Below, piece after piece: positions 4,141 through 55,389 of a stretch of 64,000 bases of DNA. The DNA lies in NCBI GenBank assembly GCA_037576215.1, contig JBANDB010000001.1, forward strand, positions 434,001-498,000. The letters are read 5' to 3'. The notes under the pieces are model-generated. The model did no database searches. It saw only the letters and a program-made list of their open reading frames with translations, and had not been told where the DNA came from. Numbering within the stretch: position 1 is the first letter of the stretch; the number at the start of each line of letters is the position of its first letter. Made by a program: the position numbers and the translations under genes. This DNA is from Armillaria gallica. Lineage: Eukaryota > Basidiomycota > Agaricomycetes > Agaricales > Physalacriaceae.

Positions 4141-4667
4141 TTATTGACGTCCGTGGTATCGCGTTTCCAGATCACAGGAGGGACAATACCCGTAGATATT
4201 GGGGGCTATCATAGATATTAGCACGAAAGAACAAGAAAATCGCAACGCATACAATACTGCTCGGGATAACGAAGGCTGAAGAATTTAATTTAGGACTCGA
4301 CGGCAATTTGGGTAAGCCTGCAGAGACGTACTATTGCCAGCAGGTACGCAGACAAACTGGCGGTTTGCAGCTCGCAGGATGGAAGAGACTAAACTTGCAG
4401 TTAGCCTTTTCACATCGAATCTAGAAAAAGGTGGTATTGAATGCGAAGACTGAGGACAATATTGGAGAACATTTATCGTACAATTTCTTCAAGCTAAGTT
4501 AACGGTGTTATAACCATGGTTAGTAAAGGAGGGCTACGTCGGTATGCAAAGGACGTACGAGGTTGACGGTGTGGCCACATCTGAGGTAGACATTCCTAAC
4601 ACTGTATGAGGCTGGTGAGCAGAGTAGTACAACAGCGAGGATCTTCTTACTGGCGACGGCGGCACAT
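4141..4667 (-). CDS. P1: small Cys/His-rich protein, six exons
   Basis: This is an intact gene of 82 aa reconstructed from six exons: 4667-4651, 4601-4559, 4493-4482 (12-nt micro-exon, LEEI), 4420-4332, 4275-4253 and 4205-4141. All five introns (47-65 nt) are GT-AG. The protein starts MCRRRHVRNVYLRCGHTVNL and continues with IRC-x4-CKFSLFHPASCKPP, TCWQYLRYPEQYSPN and CPSC, ending DLETRYHGRQ. The regular Cys/His spacing (C-G-H, C-x4-C, H-x3-C-x4-C-x3-C, C-x2-C) suggests a small zinc-binding fold. There is no signal peptide or membrane segment. I recall similar short CWQYR-PEQY proteins as uncharacterised in agaric genomes but cannot check that here. A TATA-like box lies 70 nt upstream. P1 and P3 form one subfamily (VRNVYLRCGHTVNL), and P4-P8 the other. 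Confidence 0.87.
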
Positions 4668-4736
4668 AATGGATAGTGAAGGTAAATGAGGTCGAAAGTG
4701 GCTGAGAAGATGAAGGGCACTACAGATGGTACTCAC

Positions 4737-4744
4737 TTTATAAA
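4737..4744 (-). promoter_or_regulatory. TATA-like box of P1
   Basis: TTTATAAA lies 70 nt before the P1 ATG on the minus strand. The same octamer or TTTATAAG sits 79-90 nt upstream of P4-P8, so its position is conserved across copies. Confidence 0.6.
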
Positions 4745-7700
4745 CGAAGGTAATCAATTGGGCTGACTTAAGTGTGGACAGTTAATACCGCTGACAGATA
4801 GTGTCAGTGGGTCAAACTTTCGTAGTAGTAGTAGTAGTAAGCTGCATCAGCGGAAGAGGCGGGAGTGTTGCCGAGGATCAGGAAGTTCAGTCAAAGATGA
4901 ATACCTCATTCGACGGTGAGCGATTAATTTGGTGTTTCATTATTTCTGTATTCAGGCACTATCAAGTACCCTTTTCTGTAAGAACATTGACCCAAAGATT
5001 AGCCTAAGATACTAGATCAAGGACAGCCGTTGGTAGTGGTACTTATTTTCCAAATAGACTTGACATACAACAAAGAGGTACACCTGCAAGCCAGAAAAAG
5101 GCAGATTGATCAGTCTTGGCAGGGACCTCTGGAATGTACGAACGAGTGATTCATACTAATTTCGACCCATGTTGATATTCCCAAGTCGCGAACTGGAGCA
5201 GTATGTCGACGTAAAGCGCCCTGAGTCATTGCTAGTCCAGCGTGTAGACTCTGCGACCATGTTGGTCTCAGGGTCTCAGGGCATTTTGAATACAGTTCGA
5301 AGAACAGCAAAAAGAAAATGCAGCACATAACGATAGAACATTATAATAGGGCGCCTTTTTCCGGGACGTCATAGCAATGTAGTCGTCACCTAAAGCATCC
5401 GTCAGGAAAAAGAATCGGTTCTGTGTTTCGTAGTAAAAACCTACGAGAAAAAGTTTGCCCTGTCCCAGCAATTCACCGGAAAACGAGTTTGACAAATACA
5501 ATCAATTTCATTCAGCTTCTTTCCGATCATCTCGTTAGTTTTACGGACGTGGTTACCAGAATCTCAGCTGAAATACAGACACTGGAAAGGTTGAACTGAA
5601 GACATAGAGCTCATGCCTTGTAGTCTATGGAGGGAGACGGACAGACTGGCACCGGAAGTCAAAACAGGTCAATGAGCTGAGTAAGTTCCCTGAAACCGTC
5701 AGTCCATCTGTCCATCTAGGTTTTTTAGAATGTCAACAGCGGGTTTGTAACCGATGTCCCTCGTGCAAAGTACCACATGGTAAAGAACAATAGGTCCGCA
5801 CAGACCCAGAAATAACAAGCAACCTAGAACAAATCTAGAATGTGAAGTCAAAAATCCTGGTCATATTTTACGATGATAGATCAACCACCATACAGTCTAT
5901 GCGCAGAAACGGCCCGAAGCGGCTCAATCGTTCAAGAGGGGACTTGAGCGCTGAGAAGTTTCAAGCCGCTATTTCTGTTGACTGGCCCAACTGTATAGAA
6001 AGAGAAGATTGCTCTATTGACAGCGAAGCACGGGGAGATGATAGGCCAACTCCGAGTCCCCAAGCGAAGATGAACATATCACACATTTGCACAGACCTAA
6101 AGTAGGTGAAGATAGTCCGGCAAGTGCGAGGCAATCACCGGCATAGAGACCCAGTAAACAGGAGGCTATTTATTGTTCGTGGAAGAAGCCAGCGTGAGAC
6201 GCAGCATTCTGATCAGTGTAAGAAAGCGGAGGCCGAGAGTGTTGGGGCAGACATGCACTTGTATTTGAACCATGCCCTGAGCCAACGGGACCAGATATAC
6301 GTGCCGAGAGTGATCCTGCTATGAAGTTCAGAGTGAAGAATTAACATTCCCGGCAACTCACCGATAAACTGACCGGCAACTAACCCACGTGCACATTCAC
6401 CTTTGACTCTTGACCGCCACTGCGGCCACTACGGCCGAGTCACCGCCACTGTGAAAGATTTCTATCCTCGGCAGCCTTAAGCATAGCGGCGGTGATATTC
6501 TCTGGGGATGCGGTAGCTACAGTGTCCTTCGTATCTGAGTAAAGCGAATTGCCTTTCTCTTGGTCGCCGACCATGGAGCACATTCGGATAGTCGCCATAT
6601 TCTACAAGATTTGCTTGGTTTACTGTGTATCACCTGCACAGCGACCGGAATCATAAGCACCCATACTAGGGAAGACTGGGAACGAAAGGGCATATGGCAC
6701 ATAGGCTGGACCAAAGCTGGTATCAGCGACTTTCTCAGAAAACAGTCGGCGTTGGTGACCCCTGCGCTAAAGAGGTTGAAAGGACCTGAAGACGTACACT
6801 TCAATCCCTTTTTTGCACCTCAAACTTGCGGAAGGATATGTTTCATTGAGATATGCTGCTGGCATAGCTGAGTCAGAGACGATGGCACCAGCAGAGCCAT
6901 CTGCAATGATGGTGTCAGTGTAGAAGGGCGTCATTACGCCGTCGAACTAAGTACTTGCTTGATACTGGCTAGCGACATGACATTTAGAGCACTATCGTCT
7001 TCGAAAGGTGTTCTGGCACAATCGCATTACTTCCTTGCGCTCTGTGATAGTACTTCATCGTTTTTGTACTCGATGAGTATTCGAAGTCCTAGGAGTCAGA
7101 ACTCAGCAACTCAGCAGCATCAACCTTCAACACTTCGACCTTGGCCCTGAGGTGCAAGCCTAATCAAAATGTGAACTGTTTTGAAATTTGACTTCCCTAA
7201 ATTACTGGTTATCTCGCACTTCTCACACTCACCGCTGAACGAAAGTCGCTGAAAGGATACAACCGGCAATCAAAGCTGTTTGATCGGGCTAGCACCCGCG
7301 CGTTCGCAAGTCCAAGTCCTTAATTATATAACGCCCTTGATAGTAACTGCCTCGAGAACCAGAGGACCAATTTCAAACAACGCTCAATGCTTGCTAGTGC
7401 TTTGTAAATGGTGCACAGGTCGTACAGTCGTTTCCTTACCACAACAGTGACCGCCGTTCGAATTTGTCAATGTCTGGGAAAGTCTATTTGAACCTGGACG
7501 ACTGTCTCAATCTGCCCGGAGAAAGCAAATAGCCTTTTGAATTCGGAATTCGGAATTCGGGTCCTGCTCATCATTATCTCATCTCATCTCATCATCATAT
7601 TACCTGTAGAGACCTTTGTGGCGTACAGTACACTTTTTTTGAATCCGAGGGCACATGTGGCAAATGCAATTGACACTGATCAGGGACGCGGTGATCGTTC

Positions 7701-7888
7701 ATAGGACTCCGTACACAGATCATTGAGCGCTTCGCAGGAGATGATTCATGAATTCAGACCCTTACTTCTGGCGAAAATGATGATTCGTAGCTCTCTACAG
7801 GGCTTTTACTAGTGTTTTCATCAAAAAAGGTAATATTGTTTGGGTCAAAGCTCGTTGTCGTACTACTGGCGGAGTACATTATTGTTCA

Positions 7889-8759
7889 TCAACGCCCGTG
7901 GCATTGCATTTCCCGGTCACAAGCGGGGCAATACCGACGGATGTTTGGGGCTATCGTAGGTGTTAAAGTGAGAGAACAGGAAAATCGGAAGCCATACAAT
8001 ACTGCTCTGGATAGCGAAGGTTGGAGACTTTAGTTTAGGACTCGAAGGTGATTTGGGTAAGCCCGCAGAGACGTACTATTGCTAACAGGTGCGCAGACAA
8101 ACCGGTTTGTGGCTTGCAAGATGGAAGGGACTAAACTTGCAGTTAGCCTTTTTACATCGAATCTAGAAAAAGGTGGTATTGATTGCGAAGACTGAGGATG
8201 ATATTGGAGGACATTTATCGTACAATTTCTTCAGGCTAAGTTAGCCGTGATTAGTGAAGGCGGGTTACATCGGAATGTAAAGGACGTATGAGGTTGACAG
8301 TATGACCACATCTAAGGTAGACATTCCTAACACTGTATAAGGGACGGCGATGAGTGGGGTCTGCGGGCCGGTTTCTCCGAAATCGCATTCCTCAATTCTG
8401 GGAATGTTAATTAGAAATCTGCCATTCGATTCACGACTGTTACTCAAGCAGCACTGTGGTTCTCGGGGAATGCACCCTAATTGACACCATTTCATGCTTC
8501 TCGAAGACAACTCTGATTTCCAACATTTCCCATCCGAATCATTGGAGATAGCTTGATGCGTCGTCGCCGGAACATTCTTGTAAGGAAGCGTGGTTATTTT
8601 CGATCTGGAAGCACGAAGTTGCACAATGGTAAGCATTCAATATTCATGCATCAGACCACTTCAGTGTTCTGTTGAACTGAGATTCTACTCCCACCCGCGT
8701 CGCCTCGTAATTACGCAGAAAAGGCAGTGAATAGTTACTCACTGGCGGCGATGACACAT
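7889..8759 (-). pseudogene. P2: decayed copy of the small Cys-rich gene
   Basis: All six exons can be aligned to P1 but the copy is broken in several independent ways. The Trp codon of CWQ is TAG, so the frame reads TC-stop-Q. The donor of intron 2 is AT instead of GT and the acceptor of intron 4 is AA instead of AG. A conserved Cys is His (SHKP for SCKP), one codon is missing before VCLRTC, and a Pro in FHPAS is Leu. Intron 1 is about 410 nt (8333-8742) against 49-57 nt in the other copies, owing to an insertion of about 355 bases with no open frame. The micro-exon (PEEI) survives at about 8232. The start codon (8759) and last exon remain readable. It is the only clearly dead member of the family in the window. 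Confidence 0.85.
8345..8722. other. Insertion inside P2 intron 1
   Basis: About 355 bases are present here that are absent from intron 1 of every other P gene. I found no convincing terminal repeats and no target duplication, so the nature of the insert is unknown. Confidence 0.5.
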
Positions 8760-12182: not shown

Positions 12183-13045
12183 AGTAAAAGACGAGTATCA
12201 TGCACTTGACCGGCCGAACTTTTGTCACGGTCTTGGCATGCGCTTTGACGGCATCATATCACCCTCTTTTCAATGTAACTCAATGAGCTTGTCCCGGGCA
12301 ATACCATCTTGTGTATTACAAGCCAGCAGCTCGCTCTCCCACCTAACGGACAAGGTCCGCACACGTTGCTGGCCCATTTCGATGCTAATGAATTGATGCT
12401 GCAGATTTTGCCGGAACGTCTGATGCCTACGTCCGAGCCTCACCAAATCGGTTGACGCCGCTACCACCACTAGGCCAAAGGGCCAGCGAGGGCAGACGAG
12501 GTACGCGTATATTGTGCTACCGGCTCATCTCCAACTGATGGATCGACGGTGCAGATACAGAATCTCCTAGCCCGAGCATACCAAAGCGTCTACGTCTGAT
12601 ATCCAAACTCTCACCAAAAACATCGGGTACGTTACTACTTCATCTTAGCGAATGACAAAACCCATGGCAAATGCAGGTGTCGAATGGCTACGAGCGGAGC
12701 CCATCTTCATCTCGCCATTTCAATGTCTACCAGTCCCACGAAAAGGAAAGATTTCAATGGAATAGTCATGATGCCCTTTACGTTTCAGGAAGGCCGGTCT
12801 GTTTATATCCATCTGCATATCCATCTTGCCAGTAACTACGAGTGTAACGTTGCACTGTTGGCGGTGTCCCTACTATCCAAGGACCCCTCGATTCGTTTAG
12901 CTTCCTATTTTCCCGATCGTCTTCGGCCTTTACATGTATAGCCCGCGTTAATCCAGACGCCTGTTTCATAATCTTAGGCTTGCCGCGTCACGCTGCCACC
13001 ACATCGTCCGATCCTTATCGCTTACCTTATTGTGCGTCGTCTGAA
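12183..13045. repeat. Duplicated relic block, copy 2
   Basis: This is the counterpart of 1-905. Both copies share GACCGGCCGAAC, CTAATGAATTGATGC and a CTTCGGCCTTTA stretch. Frames such as ATGSSPTDxST and the following 60 residues look similar in the two copies but are interrupted by stops in both. Confidence 0.6.
12430..12645 (+). pseudogene. Decayed GST relic (exon 1/intron 1/exon 2 start)
   Basis: GAGGTACGCGTATAT at 12498 matches the donor end of the GST intron at 17264, and the rest of the intron aligns loosely (CATCTCCAACTGATGG against GATCTGAAACTAACTGG). The next frame gives NLLARAYQSVYV against NLPYQTVYVEL in the intact GST. No open GST frame remains. Confidence 0.45.
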
Positions 13046-14058
13046 TGCTTAGATGCCGGCTTTTAGTCCGTTACTGGGGGCCCGGTACAAGAAAGACTTT
13101 CTCTTCCATCCTAACGGCTCTCGGCGACTCGGCTGGAATCTGTCTGGCTGATACTCGAAGAGAGAATTAGGGGGTCGGGCGTCGTTGGGGAGTTACGTGT
13201 CACAGCTATGGCATTCGCCTGTCCAGTGCAGATCTGCGATATTTCCACGACAGATGCAACCAAAATGTACTTCGTCGCCGGGGAATTTTAATCATCCAGA
13301 CATTGTGAAAGGATGTCATTCTGGCATGGTTTACACCACGGTGATACGGATTGGTCTCGCATCTGCATGGGGGAAGAACTCACTGCAGCATTCCTAAGAA
13401 AGGGATCTGTACAATCTTCTTTTTTCACGTTTTGTTGTCACCTCCGACAGCGTCCGGAATTTGAATTTCTGTGTTACCTTTCAACATCGTCTAAATGCAC
13501 GTAGGGATTGCCTTACGAACCCACAAATTATATCAGAGTGGTACCTTTGCAATTACAGCCTTTCAGCGCAATGGTTTACTTATTGCATCGTAGCGAAATA
13601 TTTTGGTTCGAATCCGGGAAGGTCCTTAATGGATTGATACTGTCACTTCAATTTATCGAAGATATTTAATTACTCTATCCAGAACGTAACTTTAAACTAA
13701 CAACCTTCTATGATCTATACAAGCTAAGAAATCAATCTGTATCTGGAAGGGTCCCGCTTGTTTTCAAAACCTAAAGGCATGCGGATCCGTGGGGTAAAAG
13801 CAATGCTTGCCGATCAGGCGTCTGATCATCGAGCGCCACTTGTAGCTTGTAGGAGATGAACATAGTTGTAGCGAAAACAACGATCCAGCACTGAATGACA
13901 TTGGTAACTAAGGTAACTTAAGTCTGGGTCCGACTGCTACAGGATTTTTGACTACTGGTATTGTAATTGAATAAAAAAAATTCTTTCAGGTCGAATGCCA
14001 CTCGTTGTAGGGTTTATGTCCATATACGACTCGGAATGATTGACTGGGTGAATCGAGC
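13046..14058. other. Non-coding stretch with a tRNA-like sequence
   Basis: I see no gene here. At 13561-13625 there is a tRNA-like segment with a box-B sequence, GGTTCGAATCC, followed by GGGAAGGTCC. The rest, including an AT-rich part at 13640-13740, is featureless to me. Confidence 0.4.
13561..13625 (+). repeat. tRNA-derived (SINE-like) sequence
   Basis: The 3' half carries GGTTCGAATCC (pol III box B) within a short T-arm-like hairpin and ends GGTCC. The 5' half, CAGCGCAATGG, resembles a box A. No clean cloverleaf can be drawn, so this is not called as a working tRNA gene. Confidence 0.4.
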
Positions 14059-14592
14059 CTATCGGCCTCCTCGATATTGCATTTCCCCGTAGCAAGAGGG
14101 ACAATACCAGTCGATGTTGGGGGCTGTCATAGATGTTAGCGTGAAAAAACAGGAAAATCGTGATTAGCAAGACATACAATACTGTTCTGGATAGCGAAGG
14201 CTGGGGGCTTTGGGTTAGGAGGAAGGCGATTCGGGCAGACCATCGTATACATACTACTGCCAGCAGGTACGCAGACAGGTCGGCGGTTTGCAGCTTCTAG
14301 GATGAAATGGACTAAATTTGCAATTAGACTCCTCACACCGAACCTAAGAAATGAGACGAAGTTCAAGATGAATTTAATGCAGCACGGTATTTGTCGTACG
14401 AGTTCTTCGGGCTACGTATGTTAGCGACGATTATAGAACGACAGCACCCGGTATATTGGAATGACGATGACATACGAGGTTGACGGTATGGCCACAGCGA
14501 AGGTAGACATTCCTGACGCTGTAGAAAATCAATGAGCAAAGGCTAGAGCAGATGCGGTGGCGGTGGTAAGCTTACTGGCGGCGGCGACACAT
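14059..14592 (-). CDS. P3: small Cys/His-rich protein, six exons
   Basis: This is an intact gene of 82 aa. Exons are 14592-14576, 14518-14476, 14411-14400 (micro-exon, PEEL), 14343-14255, 14200-14178 and 14123-14059, with five GT-AG introns of 54-64 nt. The exon lengths (17, 43, 12, 89, 23, 65 nt) equal those of P1 exactly. The protein begins MCRRRHVRNVYLRCGHTVNL and contains VRCEESNCKFSPFHP, TCLRTCWQYLRYPEQYSPN and WYCPSC, ending MQYRGGR. All twelve conserved Cys/His positions of the family are present. It is closest to P1. The equivalent of the upstream TATA is degraded (CTTTTTAAG near 14673), so expression may be weaker. Function is unknown. Confidence 0.87.
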
Positions 14593-17192: not shown

Positions 17193-17974
17193 ATGATTAC
17201 TCTATACGACCTTCCGTCCAAGGCGGCCAATTCTCCGGGGACTATGATTACCTGGCGGACCAGGTACGCGTATATCTCGCTGCAGGCGCGATCTGAAACT
17301 AACTGGTCAATGTTAGGTATGCTCTAAACCTGAGAAATCTGCCCTACCAGACTGTCTATGTCGAGCTGCCAGACGTCGAGGCTCTCGCCAAAAAGATCGG
17401 CGCCTCGCCCACTAGCACGAAGCCCGATGGTATCTCACCCTTTTACACCATACCCATCATCCAAGACGACACCACTGGTGCGATCGTCTCCGACTCTGCT
17501 GCCATAGCGGCCTACCTCGACAAAACATACCCCTCCTCCGGGCCCGTGCTCATCCCAACCGGGACGATGACCCTTCAGCTCGCTTTCGCCGATGCAGTCA
17601 ATGACGCCTTCAACCATCTCCGGTTGCCTCTATTTTATTCGGACATGGTAGTGACGATGAATGACCGGACGACAGTCTATATGAGAGAGAAGTTTTCCAA
17701 GCTGGAAGCTCCGGAGGGCGAGGAGCGGGAGAAGTTGTGGACTCTGACGAGGGAGAACCTGGGAAAGATGAATAGGTGGTTCGAAGGGAGTGTGGGGGAG
17801 TTTGTTCTGGGGAGTGAACCGTGTTTTGCTGATACGGCGATTTGTGGATTTTTGTGGCTCACGAGGAGGGTGGCTGGAGAGGAGAGCGAAGAGTGGAAAG
17901 ACATTGCCTCTTGGAATGACGGCCGGTGGGGAAGATACGTGGAGAGCTTCAAGCTGTATGAGAAAATTCTGTAG
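17193..17974 (+). CDS. Glutathione S-transferase (fungal etherase-like/GSTFuA type)
   Basis: This is an intact two-exon gene of 242 aa. Exon 1 is 17193-17263, the intron 17264-17316 (53 nt, GT-AG, with a CTAAC branch site) and exon 2 17317-17974. The N-terminus MITLYDLPSKAANSPGTM followed by WRTRYALNLRNLPYQTVYVE matches the thioredoxin-fold start of fungal etherase-like GSTs. KPDGISPFYTIPII and IVSDSAAIAAYLDKTYP form the glutathione-binding half (about residues 55-100). The C-terminal helical half ends with CFADTAICGFLWLTRRV and EEWKDIASWNDGRWGRYVES. The family conjugates glutathione to electrophiles or cleaves ethers. The exact substrate and the catalytic residue cannot be assigned. It is the only unbroken GST of at least four copies in the window. 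Confidence 0.93.
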
Positions 17975-20526: not shown

Positions 20527-21041
20527 TCAGCAGACTTGGTTTGGCAGGCAGCAACTGCAGGTGGGACAATACGAGTCGATGTGGGGGGCTGTAGAGAAGG
20601 TTAGCAGTGAAGAATAGAAATATAGAAGCGATTAAAGTCGCACAGTACTGTTCAGGAAAGCGACGACTGTAATAGATCAGTTACTATGAAGCCGTAGTGC
20701 CAGATGGTCCAGGACTTACTATTGCCAACAGGTCTGCCGACAAGCTGGCAGTTTGCAGCTCGCACGATGGAAAAGGCTGAACTTGCAGTTGGACTGCTCG
20801 CATCGAATCTAGAAAGACGCAAAAAATGAGAGAAATGCAGCGCGCATAGAAATGCATTGCCGTACATATTCTTCGGGCTAAGTTGTTGGAGGTCAGCAAA
20901 GGTTTATATGTTTGGATACAAAGGACACACAAGACTGAAAGCATGACCGCATCGGATGTAGACATTCCTGACTCTGAAAAACAAGTTATTGGGAGAGCAG
21001 ATGCAGCAGTAAGATGTAGCTCACTGGCGACGGTGGCACAT
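20527..21041 (-). CDS. P4: small Cys/His-rich protein, six exons
   Basis: This is an intact gene of 81 aa. Exons are 21041-21025, 20973-20931, 20877-20866 (micro-exon, PEEY), 20808-20720, 20666-20644 and 20588-20527. All introns are GT-AG and 51-57 nt. The protein begins MCHRRQVRNVYIRCGHAFSL and contains IRCEQSNCKFSLFHRASCK, RQTCWQYRRFPEQYSPHID and YCPTC, ending CCLPNQVC, with extra C-terminal cysteines unlike the other copies. All family Cys/His positions are kept. It lies in the same orientation as YKT6, 1.6 kb downstream of it. A TATA-like box lies at 21130. Function is unknown, and zinc binding is inferred from residue spacing only. Confidence 0.87.
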
Positions 21042-25409: not shown

Positions 25410-25440
25410 TAGATAAGAGTATACTTCGAACTCAAAGAAA

Positions 25441-30299: not shown

Positions 30300-31065
30300 C
30301 ACGCGCAGCGTGTTGCGCTATGTATCTCCTCTTTTCTTTGTCGTTTGGCTGTCTCTCCAACCTCCTCTGTACAATCTTGATACGCACCATGTTGCGCCAT
30401 ATATGGTTTCGTGCCGCCTTGCGGACAGTGTGTACAGCGCACGGGCCGCTGGTGGAGGTAGGCTGCATTTGTCTTATATACTGCCTAGACTAATATGTTA
30501 TCTGCAGTGAATTATCTTTCTGTGATCTCGGTGACGACCTCGATGCCCGTACTCTGTTGCTCTTATCCCTTTATCTTCCATCTGGTTGTGTTTCTCCAGA
30601 TCCTTGCATGTATATCCCCGCGCAGCATGTTGCGCCCTGTATCTCTCCATTTGGTTGTCCTGCCAAATGATCTCATGTATATCCCCGCGCAGCCTGTTGC
30701 GCCAGGTATGTTTCGTGCCGCCTTGCGGACAGTGAGTACAGTTCACGGGCCGCCGGTGGAGGTACGCCTTGCATTTGGGTAGTTGACGAGCTAGACTGAT
30801 ATGTTATCTACAGTGAATTATCTTTCTGTGATCTCGATGACGACCTCGATGCGCGTACTCTGTTGTTTCCTGTATCCGGCTCTTTTTGATCTGGCTGTCT
30901 CTACAAATCCTTGCATGTATATCCTCGCGCAGTCTGTTGCGCCATGTATGTTCCGTGCCGCCTTGCGCACAATGTGTACAACTCACGGGCCGCTGGTGGA
31001 GGTATGGCTTGTGTTCCTTTACTTACCGACTAGGCTTACAGTTGTTCTGCGGTGAGTGATGTGAT
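30300..31065. repeat. Three-unit tandem repeat (~240-305 bp period)
   Basis: The markers GCCGCCTTGCG (30413, 30718, 30957) and GTGAATTATCTTTCTGTGAT (30507, 30813, weak near 31051) recur in order, together with CACGGGCCGC and CTCTGTTG. The middle unit has an internal short duplication of ATGTATATCCCCGCGCAGC. Each junction looks like an intron (GTGGAG/GTA ... TGCAG or TACAG), which suggests an exon-intron-exon segment multiplied in tandem. No complete frame spans it. Confidence 0.65.
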
Positions 31066-34600: not shown

Positions 34601-34605
34601 CACTA

Positions 34606-34983
34606 CCGTCCAAGGCAGTCGATTATCCGGGAACTATGATTGCCTGGTGGACGAGGTACGGGTATATCTCGCTGCAGGCATGTTCTGAAACTAACGGGTC
34701 AATGTTAGGTACGCCTTGAAAAGCACGCCCCACGAGACTGTCTATGTCAAGCTCCCCGATACCTAGCTCTTTCCAAATTATCGGCACCTCGCCCACTCGC
34801 GCGAAGCCCGATGGCGTCTCGTCCTTCTACACCATACTCATCATCCACAACGACTCCACCGGCGCCGCCGTCTCCGACTCTACTGCCATAGCAAGCTACC
34901 TCGACAAAACATACCTCTCCTCTGGGCCCGTGCTCATCCCAACCAGGACGATGATCCTTCAGCTTCTTCAGAGTCACTTTTAG
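34606..34983 (+). pseudogene. GST pseudogene 2 (truncated)
   Basis: The exon 1 remnant has lost the MITLYDLP start. The 53-nt intron (34656-34708) is intact. Exon 2 begins YALKSTPHETVYVKLPDT and then hits a TAG with a 1-nt frameshift. The later frame resumes GTSPTRAKPDGVSSFYTI and continues to IPTRTMILQL, where the GST homology ends at a LLQSHF-stop junction. The entire C-terminal half is missing, at the same junction as in pseudogene 3. Confidence 0.88.
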
Positions 34984-36327: not shown

Positions 36328-36352
36328 GGTATGGAGTCAAGCTAGTACCTCG

Positions 36353-36872
36353 TCAGCGGTCTTGGTTTGGCTGGTAGCTGCTGCAGACGGGGCAATATGA
36401 ATCGGTGTGGGGGGCTGTCGAGAATGTTAGCAGTGAGCAATAGGAATGTTGAAGTGATTGAAATCGCACAGTACTGTTCAGGAAAGCGACGACTGTAAAA
36501 GATTGCTTAATACAAATTCACAGAGCGCCAGATGGTACAGACTTACTACTGCCAACAGGTCTGCAGACAAGCAGGCGGTTTGCAGCTCGCAGGATGAAAA
36601 AGGCTAAACTTGCAGTTGGATTGCTCGCATCGAATCTAGAAAGAAAGGCGGCAAAAAAATGAGATAAATGTAGCGCGCATGGAAATACATTGCCATACAT
36701 ATTCTTCGGGCTGAGTTGTTGGGAGTCAGCAGAAGCTTATATGTTTGGATAAAGGACGCACAAGACTGAAAGCATGGCCACATCGGATGTAGACATTCCT
36801 GACTCTGAAAAACAAGTTATTGGAAGAGTGGATGCAGCGGTAAGATGTAGCTCACTGGCGACCGTGGCACAT
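36353..36872 (-). CDS. P5: small Cys/His-rich protein, six exons
   Basis: This is an intact gene of 81 aa. Exons are 36872-36856, 36804-36762, 36710-36699 (micro-exon, PEEY), 36635-36547, 36492-36470 and 36414-36353. Introns are 51-63 nt and all GT-AG. The protein begins MCHGRQVRNVYIRCGHAFSL. Cys/His positions are C2, C14, H16, C27, C32, H38, C42, C47, C51, C69 and C72, with Trp at 52. The core TCWQYRRFPEQYSPH is followed by YCPVC and a variable tail ending QPNQDR. The fold is probably zinc-stabilised and cytosolic or nuclear, since there is no signal peptide. A TATA-like box lies at 36961. The nucleotide sequence is identical to P6. Confidence 0.88.
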
Positions 36873-36960
36873 CGTAAAAGGGCGGTAAAGAGAAGATGAG
36901 GGTTTGCTGTGATGTTGAAAGGCAAGTGGGAGGATGGAGAGGCGATAGTCGATCTTCCTG

Positions 36961-36968
36961 TTTATAAA
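36961..36968 (-). promoter_or_regulatory. TATA-like box of P5
   Basis: TTTATAAA lies about 90 nt upstream of the P5 ATG, at the conserved position. Confidence 0.55.
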
Positions 36969-37399
36969 CTAGCAAGGCTCCGACCCGCGATGATATCTTG
37001 TATCGTGGAGTGTTCAAGAGATCAAGGTGTTTCCGGCAGAAAGCGCTTGACATATCGAGTATTACTGTTCAAAGCGCAGCAGAAGGCACTTGATCCATCG
37101 GAGTATTGTAGTTACAAGCCACGCTAATGAGCTTTTGGCCATGAGCGGCATGGAATCACTTGAAGGCGCTACCATTTTACAGGTGGTCCAGTATTAAATA
37201 CTGAGGCAAACAAGCATAGGGAAGGCTAGAATATTGTACGCTCAGTAGAGATGACCTGTCACTGTGATTCTTGACACAATCGATAAAAACATGATCTCTG
37301 TTTGATCGTATGTGTGACTCGGACAGACAGTGAGTTTAAAGAATCATTCAAAATCAAAACTTAATAAATCGAAGATCACGATGGTTTGCTTCGTCATAA

Positions 37400-38860: not shown

Positions 38861-38967
38861 AAATCCAAGGAAAATGAACAATAAAGAGAGGATTGAGATA
38901 AGAAGGAAAGGTCGCGTGGCAGGTGCATTGCCAAGTCACGGCGGGTGACGTGTCAAGGTATGGAACG

Positions 38968-39040
38968 CGACGCGTAAGCCCCGGAATCACGACGTGTAAG
39001 CCCTGGAATCACGACGTGTAAGCCCCGGAATCACGACGCG
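38968..39040. repeat. 22-bp minisatellite, about three units
   Basis: CGACGTGTAAGCCCCGGAAT-CA is repeated three times with one or two changes. The matching place in the next unit (about 44608-44632) has a single copy. Confidence 0.75.
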
Positions 39041-41032: not shown

Positions 41033-41422
41033 ATGATTACTGGACCAGGTACGGGTATATCTCGCTGCAGGCGTGTTCTGAAATTAATTGACAATATTAG
41101 GTATGCTCTGAACCTGAAAAGTATGCCCTACCAGACTGTCTATGTCGAGCTCCCCGACATCGAGGCTCTCGCCAAAATTATCGGCGCCTCGCTCACTAGC
41201 ACGAAGCCTTATGGTGTCTCACCCTTCTACACCATCCCCATCCTCCAAGACGGCTCCACTGGCGCTGTAGTCTCCGACTCTGTTTCCATAGCAGGCTGCC
41301 TCGATAGAACATACCCCTCCTCTGGGCCCGTGCTCATCCCAACCGGGACGATGATCCTTCAGCTTCTTCAGAGTCACTTTCCGACCAGTGATTGTACACT
41401 CACGCCCGTTGACATTCGGTAA
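41033..41422 (+). pseudogene. GST pseudogene 3 (exon 1 deletion, C-terminal truncation)
   Basis: Exon 1 is reduced to 16 nt (41033-41048) against 71 nt in the intact gene. The lost part lies between two ATGATTAC repeats present in the intact exon, plus a few bases, which breaks the reading phase. Exon 2 is well preserved (YALNLKSMPYQTVYVELP through GTMILQLLQSHF) but ends where pseudogene 2 ends, without the C-terminal helical domain. It closes at a TAA at 41422. Confidence 0.9.
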
Positions 41423-42016: not shown

Positions 42017-42536
42017 TCAGCGGTCTTGGTTTGGCTGGTAGCTGCTGCAGACGGGGCAATATGAATCGGTGTGGGGGGCTGTCGAGAATGTTAGCAGTGA
42101 GCAATAGGAATGTTGAAGTGATTGAAATCGCACAGTACTGTTCAGGAAAGCGACGACTGTAAAAGATTGCTTAATACAAATTCACAGAGCGCCAGATGGT
42201 ACAGACTTACTACTGCCAACAGGTCTGCAGACAAGCAGGCGGTTTGCAGCTCGCAGGATGAAAAAGGCTAAACTTGCAGTTGGATTGCTCGCATCGAATC
42301 TAGAAAGAAAGGCGGCAAAAAAATGAGATAAATGTAGCGCGCATGGAAATACATTGCCATACATATTCTTCGGGCTGAGTTGTTGGGAGTCAGCAGAAGC
42401 TTATATGTTTGGATAAAGGACGCACAAGACTGAAAGCATGGCCACATCGGATGTAGACATTCCTGACTCTGAAAAACAAGTTATTGGAAGAGTGGATGCA
42501 GCGGTAAGATGTAGCTCACTGGCGACCGTGGCACAT
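42017..42536 (-). CDS. P6: small Cys/His-rich protein, identical to P5
   Basis: This is an intact gene of 81 aa, identical to P5 in exons, introns and proximal promoter. Exons are 42536-42520, 42468-42426, 42374-42363 (micro-exon), 42299-42211, 42156-42134 and 42078-42017. The only differences from the P5 locus lie outside the 795-bp identical tract. It sits between GST pseudogene 3 and block B of its unit. Confidence 0.88.
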
Positions 42537-45907: not shown

Positions 45908-45916
45908 CCCTCATGT

Positions 45917-45961: not shown

Positions 45962-45999
45962 ATGGTCATCAAGCCGCCGGCAACGTATACCATGACAAG

Positions 46000-47500: not shown

Positions 47501-47532
47501 AAGCTGAATGACATTCCCTGCACAGTCCCAGC

Positions 47533-48266
47533 ATGATTACTCTGTACGACCTTCCGTTCAAGGCAGCCAATTCTCCGGGGACTGATTATCAGGTATGGGT
47601 GTATCTCGCTGCAGGCGCGTTCTGGACCTAATTGACAACGTTAAGGATGCCCTATCAGACTGTCTATGTCGAGCTCCTAGACATCGAGGCTCTCGCCAAG
47701 AAGATCGGCGCCTCGCCCACTAGCACGAAGCCCGATGGTGTCTCGCCCTTCTACACCATCCCCATCCTCCAAGACGGCTCCACTGGCGCCGTAGTCTCCG
47801 ACTCTGTTGCCATAGCAGCCTACCTCGACAAAACGTACCCCTCCTCCGAGCCCATGCTCATCCTAACCGGGACGATGACCCTTCAGCTCGCTTTCGCCGA
47901 TGCGATCAATGACGCCTTTAACCATCTCCGGTCGCCTCTATTTTATTCGGACATGGCAGTGAAGATGAATGACCGGAAGATAGTGTATAAGAGAATGAAG
48001 CTCATGTTGGAGGCTCCAGGGGGTGAGGAGCAGGAGAAGTTGTGGGGAATGATGGGAGGGACCCTGGGGAAGATGAACAGATTGTTGGAAGGAAGTGAGG
48101 AGTGAAACGTGTTTTTCCCGACATAACGATTTGCGCCTCTTTGTGTTTCACGAGGAGAGTGGTCGAAAGAGGAGAGCGAGCAGTGGAACGGACATCACCC
48201 ATTGGAATGATGGAGATGGGGAAAGTACGCTGGAAAGTTTCAAGCCCTATGAGAAATTTCCGCAGG
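47533..48266 (+). pseudogene. GST pseudogene 4 (nearly full length, frameshifted)
   Basis: The ATG and MITLYDLPFKAANSPGT are preserved, with a 53-nt intron at 47593-47645. The YALNL... segment at the start of exon 2 is deleted, so exons 1 and 2 join out of frame. A 157-codon frame then covers MPYQTVYVELLDIEALAKKI to KMNRLLEGSEE. A deletion of about 22 bases in front of the conserved FADTAIC motif brings a stop at 48105, after which C-terminal GST sequence continues in other frames to about 48266. Unlike copies 2 and 3 it keeps the C-terminal half. Confidence 0.9.
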
Positions 48267-48780
48267 CAAGGACGGCGAATACTCAGTTCCATTCAGGGAT
48301 TCTTTCGACAAGCATGACGCGGTATTTCTTCGCCGGCGTTTAAAGACAAACGTCCTCCTGACGACAACGTGGTTGGAGAGAGAAGAAAATCATGATTCAG
48401 TGATGTCGGTCCATTTCACGTGGTAGTACAAGGCTGTGGCTCTTACAATACTCTTCAGCGTGTTGATCAAGTAGAGTCCGGTTGGTACTGTTGTCCAATA
48501 ATGAACTGTTTCATTATCATTAATCATTGGTAGACTCCGCTAATATCCCTGTCTCTTGAGTTCCGTTGGAATCCGTTCGGGACGGCACGGCTTCTGGGAA
48601 AGTTTCCTTCGTCAATATTGGCCCATGTGACGGAACTTCACGGAATTCCTCGCAAGAGCTTTGAACAGATTGTATTCATCGTTCGGCTGGCCATGATGAA
48701 TGCAGAACGGGGACACTCCCACGTTTTTCATGTCCTATATGTACGAGTATGCTGTTCTTCTGTCGAGTCTGAGTTCAGTT
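48267..48780. other. Spacer after GST pseudogene 4
   Basis: I see no gene or repeat that I can name here. Confidence 0.3.
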
Positions 48781-49621
48781 GACGTATATTCGTACGATCG
48801 AGGGGTATCAATATTGGAATGCCGGATAACGACAAGCTATTTGTTGAACAATTCAATGGAAGGAACTAGTATCCTTCGATAAACTGTAATTCTGTTGCAT
48901 CGGGTATCACACCTCCGAGATCGGTATAATGATGGTGCCTCACTTCATGTGTATTCTTCGATGTCTCTTGGCGAAATCTGGACTCCTTGGCATCCGCGAC
49001 TACTGTGACGCGGCGGAGGCACATGCGACTAATAGGCGCGCTCACGTTGATTGGTTTTGGGATTCCCCATTTTACCACTGATGACGCAGTAGAGGCACAG
49101 GCGTCGTCTTACTTTTCCCTCCATTCATGGATCTAGATTCCATCTTGTATATTGACGTGAGGCGTGTAAGTAGTATAGTCCAAGTTAACTACTGGCACTT
49201 ATGAACTCGAGATGATACCTAATCTCATCAATGGTTCCGGTAAATTTCAGTCTCTCGTAACGCTTCCTGTTAAAGTCGTGGCCCTATTTTGTCTTCGGTT
49301 ATCATTGACCGGACTTGAGCATTCTGAACTCGGTTGCTAAGGGACTAAAGTGGCAGAAAGATAATCAGGAGATCACTATTATATAAGTCCGATGATCACT
49401 GGCTCAATTAATCGACGTTATATGTAGATCATCAAGATCAGGCACGGAGGTACTGTTACGAATATTATGAGCCAGTAAGTAGCGACTCGTAAGCGCATAA
49501 CGGTAGTATGCATAAACCCATCTAGATGAATCAAGCTCTGATCTTGTGCCATCCCTCCACTGCGCATTCATGCATAGTACGAGCCAAGCTACTACCTGGT
49601 GAGTAGTCTGCCGTCTTGATT

Positions 49622-50127
49622 TTACTGGTAGAAGCTGCAGGCGGGACAATAAGAATCGATATGGGGAGCTGTTGAGAAGGTTAGCAAGAAAGAATAGAAA
49701 TATCGAAGTGATTACAATCGCACAGTACTGTTCAGGAAAGCGACGGCTGTAAAATATTGCTTAATACAAAGTCACAGTGCACCAGATGGTACAGACTTAC
49801 TACTGCCAACAAGTCCGCAGACAAGCCGGCGGTTTGCAGCTCGCAGGATGGAAAAGGCTAAACTTGCAGTTGGACTGCTCGCATTGAATCTAGAAAGATA
49901 GACGGCAAACAATGAGAGAAATGCAGCGCGAGTAGAAATACATTGTCGTACGTATTCTTCAGGCTAAGTTTGTAGAGGTCAGCACAAGTTCATATGTTTG
50001 GATACTAAGGACGCACAAGAGTGTAAGCATGACCGCATCGAATGTAGATATTCCTGACTCTGAAAACCAGGTTATTGGGAGAGCGGATGCAGCGATAAGA
50101 TGTAGCTTACTGGCGACGGCGGCACAT
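49622..50127 (-). CDS. P7: small Cys/His-rich protein, six exons
   Basis: This is an intact gene of 76 aa, shortened at the C-terminus by an earlier stop (ACSFYQ-stop). Exons are 50127-50111, 50059-50017, 49963-49952 (micro-exon, PEEY), 49889-49801, 49746-49724 and 49668-49622. Introns are 51-62 nt and GT-AG. The protein begins MCRRRQVRNIYIRCGHAYTL and contains IQCEQSNCKFSLFHP, LRTCWQYRRFPEQYSPHID and YCPAC. All family Cys/His positions are kept. A TTTATAAG box lies at 50217. It is most similar to P8. Function is unknown. Confidence 0.87.
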
Positions 50128-50216
50128 TGTAATAGAATGGAAGAGAGGGGATAAGGGTTTATTGCGATGCTGAAAGGCAAGTGGAAGGATGGAGGAGGCC
50201 ACAGTCGACCTTTCTG

Positions 50217-50224
50217 TTTATAAG
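50217..50224 (-). promoter_or_regulatory. TATA-like box of P7
   Basis: TTTATAAG lies about 90 nt upstream of the P7 ATG. Confidence 0.5.
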
Positions 50225-50770
50225 CTAGTAAGACCGCGATGTTATCTTGTATCAAGTAATCCCTCAAGGACAATGTTGCCCGTACTATGCTGTGTTTCCG
50301 GCAGAGAGAGAAAGCGCTTGACATATCGAGCATTACTATTCAAGGCGCTTGACTTACCGACAATGACCGTCGGAAGTCAGGCTCTGAGCCACTTCACTGT
50401 TGTGTAAGCTGCCCATGAACGGCCTGTATTCACCACCATTTTACAGGCAGCTCGGTCCGAAATTCTGAGGCATACAAGCATAGCGAAGGTTTTGAACCCA
50501 TGATATGATCAATAACAAATTTCTCCCTTCTTGATCGCACGTCATAGATGATGCACATGAGCTGAAATTGATATTGAAGAAATGAGACGACGGTTTGCTT
50601 ACTGGACCAAGATAATACAGAAGCATCAAATCTACGGCGTTTGCAAAGCCGCGTGCATCTCGAGGCCACCAATAAAACCATAAATGCCTAGGAAGACTGG
50701 TAGGAACAAAAGCCGGAATCCAGATTTGAGAGTCGTTTTTCCCAGACAGAAAAAGTAGCCTTTTCAACTC

Positions 50771-51017
50771 CACAGCAGAGGCCAGTGCGTTTCTGCTGGT
50801 CAAAAACGAAGCCCTAAAAGGTATCAATTTAGCGAAGCCTTTCTCGATCCAGAAAAGGCCGTCGGTTAAACGGCAATGAAAAACTTTACCTCCTACGGAA
50901 ACAATGGACTTAGGGTATCTTCTCGTTTTACGGAGCGCAAACCAAGGGAGTAAGAACGGAAACTGGAATCGGAACTTTTTAAGGTCCTGTTTTAAGCTAT
51001 TAAAAGTGCATGCAGTG
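50771..51017. mobile_element. 247-bp MITE in block B (unit with P7)
   Basis: The element runs from CACAGCAGAGGCCAG to GCATGCAGTG and interrupts a stretch that is continuous in the other block B copies (AACT/TCGAATTCGG). A related element lies at 54100. The ends are imperfect inverted repeats of about 12-15 bp, and the flanks look like an imperfect 3-bp duplication (CTC/CTT). Confidence 0.6.
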
Positions 51018-51430
51018 CTTCGAATTCGGTGATAAACGCCGATCTCAGTTATTGCATGCATTTCACACTTACCTCGAAAGTCTCGAAGGATACTGAAAGA
51101 GGAACGACGAACGGAGAAGCCTTGCGAATGAGTGTTTTGAGAACGTCCTCAGCATAGTTGCTCTCGAGATGCGCGTGGCAGTATTCTATCTCTCAAGAGA
51201 ACGAGCACAGGGTATCATCAACTTGGATGCTGAGATGGCCGTCAGGATGCAGACTTCTTTTCAATAGAGTCCTGAATGAGGCCATCAAGCTTCTTTTCAC
51301 AACGAGCTCCGGCCACTGACCATAGTACTGACCGTGCCCGCTGAAGATTTCGCCTGGCTTCAAGATCAGCACGGGAAGAGAAAAAGGTCCAAGACAAGTT
51401 CGATCTGATCTTACGAATTTATGATAGGCT

Positions 51431-52554
51431 GCTAGGCTGGTGTCGCAAGCGACTGCGCAGGCTGTGGATCTAAGCGCAGTCTCGAAACCTGGGCCTGAGC
51501 TCCCATAGCTTCGTAGAATAGCGGTTCTTCAGTGTCACTGTTCACATGCCATCCTAACAAGGCAGGTAATCCGAGGAAAAGACGCCCTGCGTTGGCACTC
51601 GGGCCATTAAACGCGGGCAAAAATCAATCAGGTAAGAAAGTCGAGGATAAGACGAACGCCTGCATGGGCCTGGGATGGTCCTTAGCTACCAATTCCTGAA
51701 CCAAAGATGTGATGAGAGACTCAGCAAAGACGAAGCGCGATAAAAAAGCAGGAGGACCACGACAAGGCGAAATGATGACCAGCACTGCTCTCAATTACAG
51801 TAGCCACTTACTAGGACTAACAGGTTCACGCAGATGGTGGTTACTGAGATCGGGATGCCGACTAGTCCGGGACGGAAAAGGTGCGTCCCGTCACGTGTAC
51901 ATTCAGCTCTCTTCACCACTGACCAGTGTTCTACGAATGGCTCACGAATCCGGCTGCTGCACCGTACTCGATATTATCCCCTGGTATTTAAACCGCCGTA
52001 AAATCTTTCACAGGAGCTGAGATCTTCGGTATTCTTGGGTGTGGGGTACCTTTCGTATTTGGGTGGAGTGGATTGTTCGTCTCTTGCGTTACAAAGGTTC
52101 ATCGGTATGGTTATAATTCGTAAGCTCAAGACAAACCTCTTCCTTATGTTCTCCGTCGAACAAACTACGACTCTCAGTCTCAGATAAAAGCTGATCCGAC
52201 GACACAGGAACGGAAAGTGTGGAAAAGGAACCAGAATGTTAGTTGGTATGACCTGTACTAGATGTGTGCGTTACACTTCTGTCTTTGTGTCTCTCAATCT
52301 AATTGCCGTTCCCATCTCGGACAGTACTATTACTCGCCTACCGACACCCACACTTTACGCGCTGTGACCAGAATCGTAGACAGTGAACGAGGGTGCTAAG
52401 AAATCTACGAACGAAAGGGTTATTAGGCTCGGGACCACGCAATAGACAAGTCGCAGAGGGAATGGTCGACAAACCTGCTTTGTGAATGCAACCATACTAT
52501 TTGTTTGGCTTCCATTCAACTGCCTTCAATTCAAGTCTTGCTCCTTTCATCCCT
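51431..52554. other. Flank after block B (P7 unit)
   Basis: The part 51.6-52.0 kb is repeated at 56.2-56.65 kb (shared CCAATTCCTGAA and ATTATCCCCTGGTATT). No gene is seen. Confidence 0.4.
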
Positions 52555-53225
52555 GTCTGGGCATGATGGTAAGAAAGCTAAATTATTTGGTTTTGTTTGA
52601 CTCTCTGGCTCAATCAAAAATCGAACGTCTTGACGCCGCATTTGAACGCGACTACCGCCGTTGTTCCTTACTCATCTAGACTCGAATGTTCGTATCGATT
52701 CGACTAGAACAGGCTGCCATCATCAATGAGCCAGCACTGGCATCATCGTCGAAGGCCTAGCTAACACCACGCCGGCACACCATCGTCTCTTCCTTCCACC
52801 ACCTGCGCACGAAAATGAAGGAGTCCATGTTTATACCGCAGTTGTAGGGTCCCCGTCAACACCGACACGTCGACTGAATGCTTAGGTCTATGCACAGGTA
52901 CCTAATCTACGAGTATCCATAAATCGGCTTCCCAGGCTAATTTTTTCTTTCGCTTAGGCTATCTCCAATGTACCCGACGAAAAGCTCTGCTCCATGCGAC
53001 ACCCTCAGATCTCAAGCTCTGAAATGTCCTATAGTTCGAGTCTGGCTATAAGCGCTCGCAAATTCCATACGCCACTCCCCAAAAATGATCCACTACTATT
53101 GGTCCACAACGAGGCCCCACGTCATCTGAACGAGATTCCGGCCCTGGTCCATACATTTCGCCTGCAGAGCTTTTCAGTCTTAGGCAGCACCGGCGCGGTC
53201 CTACGTCCTCGTGGACAGATTCTTC
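52555..53225. repeat. Segment duplicated at 63352-64000
   Basis: The two copies are nearly the same (GATGGTAAGAAAGCTAAATT, GCCATCATCAATGAGCCAGC and others). The second lacks about 95 bases corresponding to 53066-53160. Both contain a clear intron-like piece ending in a pyrimidine tract and TTAG (52958) or CTAG, flanked by short coding-like frames (TDTSTECLGLCTG / YLQCTRRKALL). Confidence 0.8.
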
Positions 53226-53459
53226 TATTCACGACGATCCTGGAGCGCCTTCGATACCTCATCTCCTCCTTCATCTCCGAAAGCGTCCACGACCTAGTGC
53301 TGAAGCCATGCGAGCACCTCAAGGGAAAGCCAAAGGTCCTACCCTCGAAACCTCGCAAGGACTGCCAGTGACGAGCTGTATCCAAGCTACAACAATGATG
53401 ATAGGCGTTGAACGTTGATGATTCATCGAAGCGTAACCTAAACTTGTCCCGACTGCGAG

Positions 53460-53906
53460 GACACCCAGCCTTACGCGACCATCCCCTCCGTTAATAAACT
53501 CATTCAAGTGCAATACGGTGCTCTTGAATATGCGAACCTCGAAAACGTCGCCACATGTCAGCCCAACTTCGACGGGATTCTGCGTCGGATCACTGGTGTA
53601 TTGCTGTCCCTTTCAATTCATTCTCATATCGACCATCAAAGACGACTTCACCTGCGCCATTGTCCCTCGCCTATTAACAACACGTACCCCCATAGTAGCA
53701 CTCCAAACTTCTCCGATATTAAGTTCTTTCTCCATCCCCGCAATTAAGAAACGGTACCCGAAGAAGCTGCGATGTGGACAAAGGTGGAGGTAGACTTTGG
53801 GAGGATTGAGTCCGAAGACGACTGGTGCAGCTTCGACGCGATGATTTACGCGTCTCGGGAGAACTGGGCGGGCAGGAGTCAAGCTGACATATATTCGTAC
53901 AATTGA
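53460..53906 (+). CDS. 3' part of an unidentified spliced gene
   Basis: Three exons join in frame: 53460-53595, 53642-53683 and 53749-53906, with GT-AG introns of 46 and 65 nt. They give 111 residues and a TGA stop. The reading is DTQPYATIPSVNKLIQVQYG, ...NFDGILRRIT / DDFTCAIVPRLLTT / QTVPEEAAMWTKVEVDFGRI and EDDWCSFDAMIYASRENWAG, ending DIYSYN. Removing the introns removes all stops, and the sequence reads like a real protein. I do not recognise the family. Upstream exons probably lie in 52.9-53.4 kb, where a long open frame (52994-53371) occurs, but I could not place that junction. Only the last few codons have an echo at 48.79 kb. Confidence 0.42.
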
Positions 53907-54099
53907 GGCATGGAATGACAGAGAACGACCATTTATTTATTGAGAAATTCAACGGGACTATCTAGCACCCCATTCGGTAACAGATAAACAGCGTGATTTT
54001 GTTGCATCGGGTATCACATCTCCGATACCGGTATAATGTGTGCTTTATTCTTTGAAATCTCGTGTCAGAATCTGGACTCTTGAGCATCCGCGACTGATA

Positions 54100-54352
54100 C
54101 ACAGCAGAGGCCAGTTCATTTTAACTGGTAAAAAACGAAACCTTAAAAGGTTTTGATTTAGCGAAGCCTTTCCCGGTCCTGAAAAGGCCATCGGTAAAAC
54201 GGTATGAACAACTTTTCCCCCTATAGAACAATGGACTTGAGGTACCTTTTCGTTTTACAGCGGGAAAAACAAGGGCGTAAAAACTGAAGCTGAAATCGAA
54301 ACCATTTAAGGTCTCGTTTTAGGCCATTAAAAATGTACCAGCCTCTGCAGTG
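54100..54352. mobile_element. 253-bp MITE
   Basis: The ends CACAGCAGAGGCCAG and CCAGCCTCTGCAGTG are inverted repeats with a few mismatches. The duplicate locus at about 49.02 kb lacks the element (GCGACTAATAGGCGCG), so the site is ATA, duplicated as ATA...ATA. Together with the copy at 50771 this defines a small family with a 3-bp target duplication, the size seen in PIF/Harbinger elements. Confidence 0.68.
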
Positions 54353-54869
54353 ATAGGCGCGCTCACGTTGATTACTTTTTGGGATTCCCCATTTTACCAC
54401 TGATGATGCGGTAGAGGCACGGGCGTCGTCAGGTTACTTTTCCCTCCGTTTATGGATTTAGGTTCTCTCTTGTGTATTGACGTGAGGTGTGTAGTATGGT
54501 TCAAGTCAACTACTGACACTGATGAGCCCGAAATGATACCTAGTTCTTATCAATGGTTCCAGTAAACTTCAGCCTCTCGTAATGCTCCCTGTTAAAGTTA
54601 CAACCTTACTCTGTATTCGATTATCATTGACCGGACTTGAGCATTCAGGGACCAAAGTGGTGGAAAGATAACCAGGAGATCACTATTATATAAATCCGAT
54701 CACTGGCTCATTTAATCGACGTAACATGTAGATCATTAAGATCAGGCACGGAGGCACTGCTACCAATATTATGCGTGAGTAAGTACTGAGTAAGTGTATA
54801 TACTGCTAGCTATCCGATGAACCAAGCTCTAATCTTATGACGCAGTCAAGCCATTACCCTCGTGGGTCG

Positions 54870-55389
54870 TCAGCCATCTTCATTTGACTGGTAGAAGCTG
54901 CAGGCAGGACAATAAGAATCGATATGGGGGGCTGTCGAGAAGGTTAGCAAGAAATAATAGAAATATATAAGTGATTCAAGTCGCACAGTACTGTTCAGGA
55001 AAGCGACGGCTGTAATAGATCAGTCACTATAAAGTCGTAGTGCCAGATGGTCCAGGACTTACTATTGCCAACAGGTCCGCAGACAAGCTGGCGGTTTGCA
55101 TTTCGCAGGATGGAAAAGGCTAAACTTGCAGTTGGACTGCTCGCATGGAATCTAGAAAGACAGACGGCAAAAAATGAGAGAAATGCAGCGCACGTAAAAA
55201 TACATTGTCGTACGTATTCTTCACGCTAAGTTTGTGGAGGTCAGCACAGGTTCATATGTTCGGATACTAAGGACGCACAAGAGTGTAAGCATGACCGCAT
55301 CGAGTGTAGACATTCCTGACACTGAAAACCAGGTTATTGGGAGAGCGGATGCAGTGGTATGGTGTAGCTTACTAACGGCGGCAGCACAT
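54870..55389 (-). CDS. P8: small Cys/His-rich protein, six exons
   Basis: This is an intact gene of 81 aa. Exons are 55389-55373, 55321-55279, 55225-55214 (micro-exon, REEY), 55151-55063, 55009-54987 and 54931-54870. Introns are 51-62 nt and GT-AG. The protein begins MCCRRYVRNVYTRCGHAYTL and contains IPCEQSNCKFSLFHPAKCK, LRTCWQYRRFPEQYSPHID and YCPAC, ending YQSNEDG. All family Cys/His positions are retained even though the adjacent residues differ from P7 (RCE to PCE, ASC to AKC). A TTTATAAG box lies 79 nt upstream (55468). Function is unknown. Confidence 0.87.

Follow-up and report, generated by a model that had tools for sequence, protein, structure and literature searches.

The window analyzed in this study, a 64-kb stretch of the Armillaria gallica genome, contains eight copies (P1-P8) of a small gene, all on the minus strand, that were rebuilt with a spliced-alignment script (Table 1). 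Seven copies (P1 and P3-P8) consist of six exons separated by five GT...AG introns of 47-65 nt each, with exon sizes of 17, 43, 12, 89 and 23 nt followed by a last exon that runs up to the stop codon. None of the seven has a frameshift or an internal stop, and each encodes 11 of 11 conserved residues (9 Cys and 2 His). The remaining copy, P2, is a pseudogene: its exon 1 was not found, the donor GT of intron 2 is altered, exon 4 has a stop at its Trp codon, and the alignment forced two frameshifts. The seven intact copies reached alignment scores of 286-305 and P2 reached 175, and shuffled stretches (n=200) scored 26 or less. Four further matches in the window scored 28-36; these look like chance because the shuffled maximum of 26 came from 200 stretches whereas 1690 real stretches were scanned. 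The initial annotation had described eight minus-strand copies between positions 4141 and 55389, seven of them with splice sites, frame and Cys/His residues preserved; that observation is correct, the outer limits agree with the rebuilt copies, and the gene anatomy upholds its view that these are real spliced genes. The P5 and P6 proteins are identical to each other, and P1 differs from the A. gallica protein P0023 at 2 of 82 residues.

Table 1. Small genes, glutathione S-transferase (GST) features and the identical tract in the window (C1 positions in brackets)
Feature	Position in window	Strand	Remarks
P1, intact six-exon gene	4141..4667	-	exons 4667-4651, 4601-4559, 4493-4482, 4420-4332, 4275-4253, 4205-4141
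P2, pseudogene	7889..8334	-	spliced alignment
P3, intact six-exon gene	14059..14592	-	spliced alignment
GST open frame, in duplicated blocks	17303..17974	+	Pfam GST_C_7, GST_N_2
P4, intact six-exon gene	20527..21041	-	spliced alignment
GST remnant, P5 unit, 65 aa matched	34774..34968 (C1:468774-468968)	+	
795-nt tract, P5 unit identical to P6 unit	36328..37122	.	identity lower on either side
P5, intact six-exon gene	36353..36872	-	spliced alignment
GST remnant, P6 unit, 92 aa matched	41093..41368 (C1:475093-475368)	+	
P6, intact six-exon gene	42017..42536	-	spliced alignment
GST pseudogene, P7 unit, three stops	47638..48249 (C1:481638-482249)	+	
P7, intact six-exon gene	49622..50127	-	spliced alignment
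P8, intact six-exon gene	54870..55389	-	spliced alignment

GST genes are interspersed with the small genes in duplicated blocks of the window. The GST is broken in three of the four P4-P7 units (P5, P6 and P7), each time beside an intact small gene, though not all neighbors have decayed since the P4 unit still has an open GST frame. The identical tract shared by the P5 and P6 units is a probable product of recent gene conversion.

The eight copies are real, but they are only part of the array. The genome holds at least 49 loci, which is a lower bound, and 44 of these lie inside one 690-kb region of contig C1 (C1:100-790 kb). Loci outside this cluster include two copies on contig C8, which are of a type widespread among mushrooms, and one diverged copy on C14. 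The five intron positions are identical in 40 of the 49 loci. Thirty-nine loci are strictly intact, meaning that they span the full profile length with no stop, frameshift or indel; this count includes C1:238387 even though its ATG is lost. Loci outside the strictly intact set include the C14 copy, which is open and one residue shorter, like P0012 of Plicaturopsis crispa; C1:644557, with an in-frame deletion and an altered Trp52; and C1:669495, which is otherwise open with two ligand cysteines lost. Seven more are broken or incomplete: P2, C1:100828 (exon 1 not found inside the permitted intron length), C1:242898 (a stop and one lost ligand cysteine), C1:296390, C1:330906, C1:409037 and C1:579067. 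The 37 intact copies of the cluster type encode 36 distinct proteins. With regard to a possible subtelomeric position of the cluster, contig C1 carries telomere repeats at the end far from it, and the repeat listing has none at the end near it. A Pfam scan of C1:90-290 kb, covering 10 of the 80 frames of at least 150 aa, found a HET-domain frame at C1:288903-290000.

Twenty-nine of the 39 intact copies have a TATAAA between -130 and -50, compared with a mean of 1.0 and a maximum of 4 in 200 shuffles. A relaxed TATA pattern, picked after the sequences had been viewed, occurred in 36 of 39. This suggests TATA-type promoters and, with them, regulated expression.

The encoded proteins share the pattern M-C-x-x-R...C-G-H...C-x4-C-K-F-S...C-W-Q-Y...C-P-x-C, so that the compact Cys/His arrangement described initially is upheld. 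Nine Cys/His columns are invariant across 56 homologs and C42 is nearly so; C2 is likewise invariant in 43. Strong conservation extends beyond the cysteines to W, Y, P, F, H and G residues. Other residues separate the conserved cysteines, which form no C-x-C or C-C runs; individual copies such as P8 do contain a C-C by chance. The genome copies have a median pI of 8.81 and a GRAVY of -0.74, and zinc binding is plausible from the residue pattern.

It had also been said that no known domain name is obvious for the protein, and searches of Pfam, NCBIfam and PDB gave no credible match for the family. The sole PDB result of one search was RhoA (E 0.54), and a second search gave none. Pfam searches with the homologs returned 13 families at E of 1 or less, of which twelve matched just one member each; these, with Keratin_B2_2 the best (E 0.0057), are attributed to chance, as are the four NCBIfam families (best E 0.023). 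Four of the 56 homologs matched the TAZ zinc finger (zf-TAZ, PF02135), all weakly (best E 0.065), and P5 reached 12.4 bits against a gathering cut-off of 25. The order H-x3-C...C...C is the TAZ pattern and recurs in part of the family protein, but the remaining Cys/His residues have no shown counterpart in TAZ.

Selection on the family is purifying overall. Pairwise counts were made on the 37 intact cluster-type copies, with the ten loci that are not strictly intact and both C8 genes dropped, and gave a pN/pS of 0.268 and a JC dN/dS of 0.175. The 11 Cys/His codons have 44 synonymous and 0 replacement changes, compared with 268 synonymous and 237 replacement changes at the other 61 sites, and the 39 strictly intact copies show no Cys/His replacement at all. 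When neutral evolution was simulated 4000 times to 0.2 substitutions per site, no run retained the frame, the ligands and the splice sites together. The initial annotation had proposed that selection preserves the copies and had named a dN/dS near 1 as evidence against this; a ratio far below 1 together with unreplaced ligands supports the proposal. However, dN/dS is 0.57 in the eight closest pairs (dS <0.1), and recent copies may therefore be partly relaxed. Between P4 and P8, coding DNA and introns both stand at 0.88, coding DNA being no better conserved. Per-site counts, which are not a formal test, showed no obviously fast site and no sign of diversifying selection.

The suggestion that the family is possibly lineage-specific was not borne out. 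The profile search that had been proposed found homologs down to E 7e-39 (8e-42 with P5 as query), with homology over the whole length. Among the 120 of 140 matches listed, eight of which lack an organism name, homologs with uninformative names come from many mushroom genera of the Agaricomycetes. The window genes are members of this uncharacterized family and share core length, Cys/His residues and motifs with proteins such as P0012, P0019 (Gymnopilus junonius) and P0011 (Armillaria mellea). In the sample only the amplified clade is confined, as it contains Armillaria/Desarmillaria rows and a single long-branched exception from Hymenopellis, whereas the C8-type copies group with proteins of many other mushrooms. 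It should be noted that this tree is built on few columns with 41 of 90 inner branches open, and that it was made without the partial Guyanagaster protein P0056 and without P0087.

Database models of the family are often incomplete. A pattern search detected both core exons in 112 of 161 fetched homologs, many of which are marked partial, and 36 of those 112 match the start, the spacing of the 12-nt exon and the C-terminal pair of the model presented here. Motif and locus-tag searches, and searches on Armillaria clusters or expansions, conserved unannotated genes and microexons, led to no paper recognized as treating the family. Neither the main text of PMC12350377 nor that of PMC9678268 contains the locus tags sought, and PMC10204328 and PMC8893723 were among the papers not recognized as treating it; a passage of the latter names the Armillaria data set GSE100213.

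These data show an unnamed protein-coding family, widespread in mushroom genera, that was amplified in Armillaria/Desarmillaria to at least 44 loci in 690 kb, where some copies have decayed and most stay intact under purifying selection. The reading we favor, with a probability of roughly 0.6, is that the genes encode a small basic protein (approximately 9.5 kDa) that would remain inside the cell and be held together by zinc, expressed from TATA promoters and amplified for dosage or variants. The 9 Cys and 2 His would hold two or three zinc ions in a rigid single-domain module with a basic N-terminus, and its conserved C-W-Q-Y / P-x-Q-Y region may be exposed to bind a protein or nucleic-acid partner. 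Expression would be regulated, and amplification would provide dosage together with a range of variants built on one fixed scaffold. More tentatively, the family may represent a new zinc-stabilized fold found throughout the mushroom-forming fungi, a regulatory binding module whose Armillaria variant array of about 40 genes would have gone largely unseen because gene predictors fail on exons of 12 and 17 nt.

A role in metal or redox buffering, with amplification for dosage within a detoxification region that includes the GSTs, would explain the small size, the cysteine content, the tandem copies, the interspersed GST genes and the TATA promoters, and it recalls yeast CUP1, a metallothionein gene amplified for dosage. 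However, metallothioneins carry dense C-x-C / C-C clusters with little else conserved, whereas the ligands here are spaced and the aromatic, proline and other residues are conserved as in a folded domain. The near absence of identical proteins among the cluster-type copies also argues against pure dosage, and this explanation is unlikely. A secreted effector or antimicrobial peptide acting against plants or microbes appears quite improbable, even though the proteins are small, Cys-rich and lineage-amplified in a plant-associated genus and P0087 bears the database name 'Secreted protein'. On inspection, the intact models begin C-x-x-R and appear to lack a hydrophobic leader, and the N-terminal extension of database models P0011, P0015 and P0026 matches promoter DNA including the TATA box. 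Purifying selection overall and the presence of homologs in saprotrophic or mycorrhizal fungi also speak against it.

The large local array, its pseudogenes, the conversion-like tract and the HET-domain frame could be taken to indicate selfish or allorecognition genes (drive or incompatibility), kept by conflict and not by service to the host. That is very improbable given purifying selection overall, the lack of an obviously fast site in the per-site counts and the two C8 copies of the type shared with many other mushrooms. Hardly credible is the notion that these are functionless decaying duplicates whose open frames are remnants: 7 of 49 loci are broken or incomplete, one more lacks two ligands and the closest pairs have a raised dN/dS, but the overall ratio, the unreplaced ligands, the neutral simulations and the decay of three GST neighbors next to small genes that did not decay are all against it.

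No name, domain entry or function was found for a family that is kept in many mushroom genera. In the P4-P7 units of the array the small gene has stayed intact even where its GST neighbor decayed, as happened in three of the four, and corrected gene models would allow existing RNA-seq, such as GSE100213, to be re-read. Because many genera keep the family and nine Cys/His columns are invariant in 56 homologs, its proteins probably do something basic in mushroom cells.

The spliced aligner recovered eight copies of one small gene on the minus strand of the window (C1:434001-498000, C1 being one of 28 contigs in an 86-Mb genome). In seven of these, which have an open frame and five GT-AG introns, the exons measure 17, 43, 12, 89 and 23 nt plus a short last exon; the eighth, P2, is broken. 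The intact copies scored 286-305 compared to a maximum of 26 for 200 shuffled stretches, so the eight copies, seven of them intact, proposed in the initial annotation stand. The closest protein matches among those listed came from Armillaria, and P1 differs from the A. gallica database protein P0023 at 2 of 82 residues.

A genome search with the exon-4 peptide found at least 49 loci, of which 44 lie on C1 between about 100 and 790 kb, two on contig C8 and one each on contigs C4, C12 and C14. The family has been amplified. Models were built for all 49; 39 were strictly intact, 38 of them with an ATG, and 40 share intron positions 17, 60, 72, 161 and 184 nt. The two genes on C8 carry one additional intron, at position 38. 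Along C1 the copies are oriented in blocks, apart from one isolated exception. Two separate copies, C1:242898 and C1:579067, have a stop at the same codon (residue 13, just before C-G-H). Of the 39 intact copies, 29 have TATAAA between -130 and -50 (shuffled mean 1.0, maximum 4, 200 shuffles), a placement that fits regulated genes and is no proof of expression.

The family is under selection, as had been claimed from its preservation. Among pairs of the 37 intact cluster-type copies, mean pS was 0.451 and pN 0.121 (ratio 0.268; JC-corrected dN/dS 0.175), and dN equalled or exceeded dS in only 1 of 665 pairs, the identical P5/P6 (both zero). Counts on the tree gave 312 synonymous and 237 replacement changes (omega 0.23), and the 11 Cys/His codons had 44 synonymous and no replacement changes. 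Intactness did not require cysteines save the last, whose loss shortens the match; C1:669495 was left out for this reason. Coding identity exceeded that of noncoding DNA in the distant pairs P1/P3 (0.82 versus 0.61, 0.58 and 0.53 for introns and flanks) and P1/P5 (0.76 versus 0.50 for introns), whereas in P4/P8 both were 0.88. In 4000 neutral runs excluding indels and scored on kept frame, ligands and splice sites, 0.45% survived at 0.1 substitutions per site and none at 0.2; pairs of cluster copies have a median fourfold distance of 0.42.

The protein has 73-86 residues (about 9.5 kDa, pI 8.4-9.7). Residues C14, H16, C27, C32, S35, H38, C47, C51, C69 and C72 did not vary in 56 homologs, C42 was nearly invariant, and C2 was invariant in a 43-member set. 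Trp52 is conserved with exceptions, being Arg in both C1:789322 and C1:644557. Such a Cys/His-rich protein likely binds zinc; its eleven potential ligands would be enough for two or three ions. Curated families and solved structures searched with the family gave no credible match, in agreement with the earlier view that no known domain is obvious.

In the family tree, the C1, C4 and C12 copies form one clade with Armillaria/Desarmillaria proteins (support 100/96; 98/91 without C12), inside which one long-branched Hymenopellis row falls. The C8 copies cluster with proteins from other mushrooms; the one on C14 belongs to a third, diverged group. Named homologs among the matches listed came from mushroom genera that include Plicaturopsis, Gymnopilus, Suillus, Lentinus, Lactarius, Peniophora, Neolentinus, Ramaria and Sistotremastrum. 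Lineage specificity, raised earlier as a possibility, therefore applies, among the proteins sampled, to the amplified array and not to the family. Also among the matches listed, seven A. gallica proteins share one 1,046,292-bp contig and six A. solidipes proteins one 428,917-bp contig, which suggests clusters in those assemblies too. Listed matches are named hypothetical, uncharacterized or unnamed protein, P0087 additionally "Secreted protein". In some database models (P0005, P0072, P0081) the 12-nt exon is missing and the spacing is 6, not 10; others (P0008, P0014, P0015) seem to retain introns. The N-terminal extension M-E-A-P-F-N-A-T-G-I-K-A of P0011/P0026 and others corresponds to promoter DNA, including the TATA box, upstream of C8 1984175 (locus L063 of this genome, G000), so such starts are probably mis-annotated.

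The window contains repeated blocks, 68-89% identical over at least 150 nt, that include a GST gene; the copies of this gene in the P5, P6 and P7 units are fragments or carry stops. Genome-wide there were 48 GST rows. C1 holds 27 of them, several of which belong to a single locus, and some of its GST frames are open, chiefly beyond 790 kb. Several open GST frames at C1:797-905 kb lie past the final small-gene copy detected, which means that the GST array extends further than the small-gene array. P5 and P6 share 795 identical nt, with 0.68-0.92 identity per 200 nt on both sides, dropping where the aligned block ends; we read this tract as gene conversion. Among ten frames scanned for domains at C1 90-290 kb were one for a tnp2 transposase, one with a HET domain and one F-box-like frame that scored below threshold.

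Features in the window and near the array on contig C1
Feature	Position	Strand	Basis or detail
GST, open frame, P4 unit	window 17303-17974		Pfam
F-box-like frame adjoining 0.9-kb duplication	window 1002-2555	minus	Pfam score slightly below cut-off
0.9-kb segment, present twice	window 1-915 and 12186-13059		75% identity
0.5-kb direct duplication	window 52556-53066 and 63350-63887		86% identity
Short minisatellites	window 38947-39040 and 30567-30703		22/44-nt and 67-nt units
HET-domain (heterokaryon incompatibility) frame near array (L028)	C1:288903-290000		23.1 bits, cut-off 22.5

With moderate confidence we infer a cellular role for the small protein, because a putative folded core is conserved and neither a leader sequence nor an arms-race pattern is visible. 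What emerges is not a novel type of system but a well-founded, uncharacterised family whose lineage-specific array is unusual.
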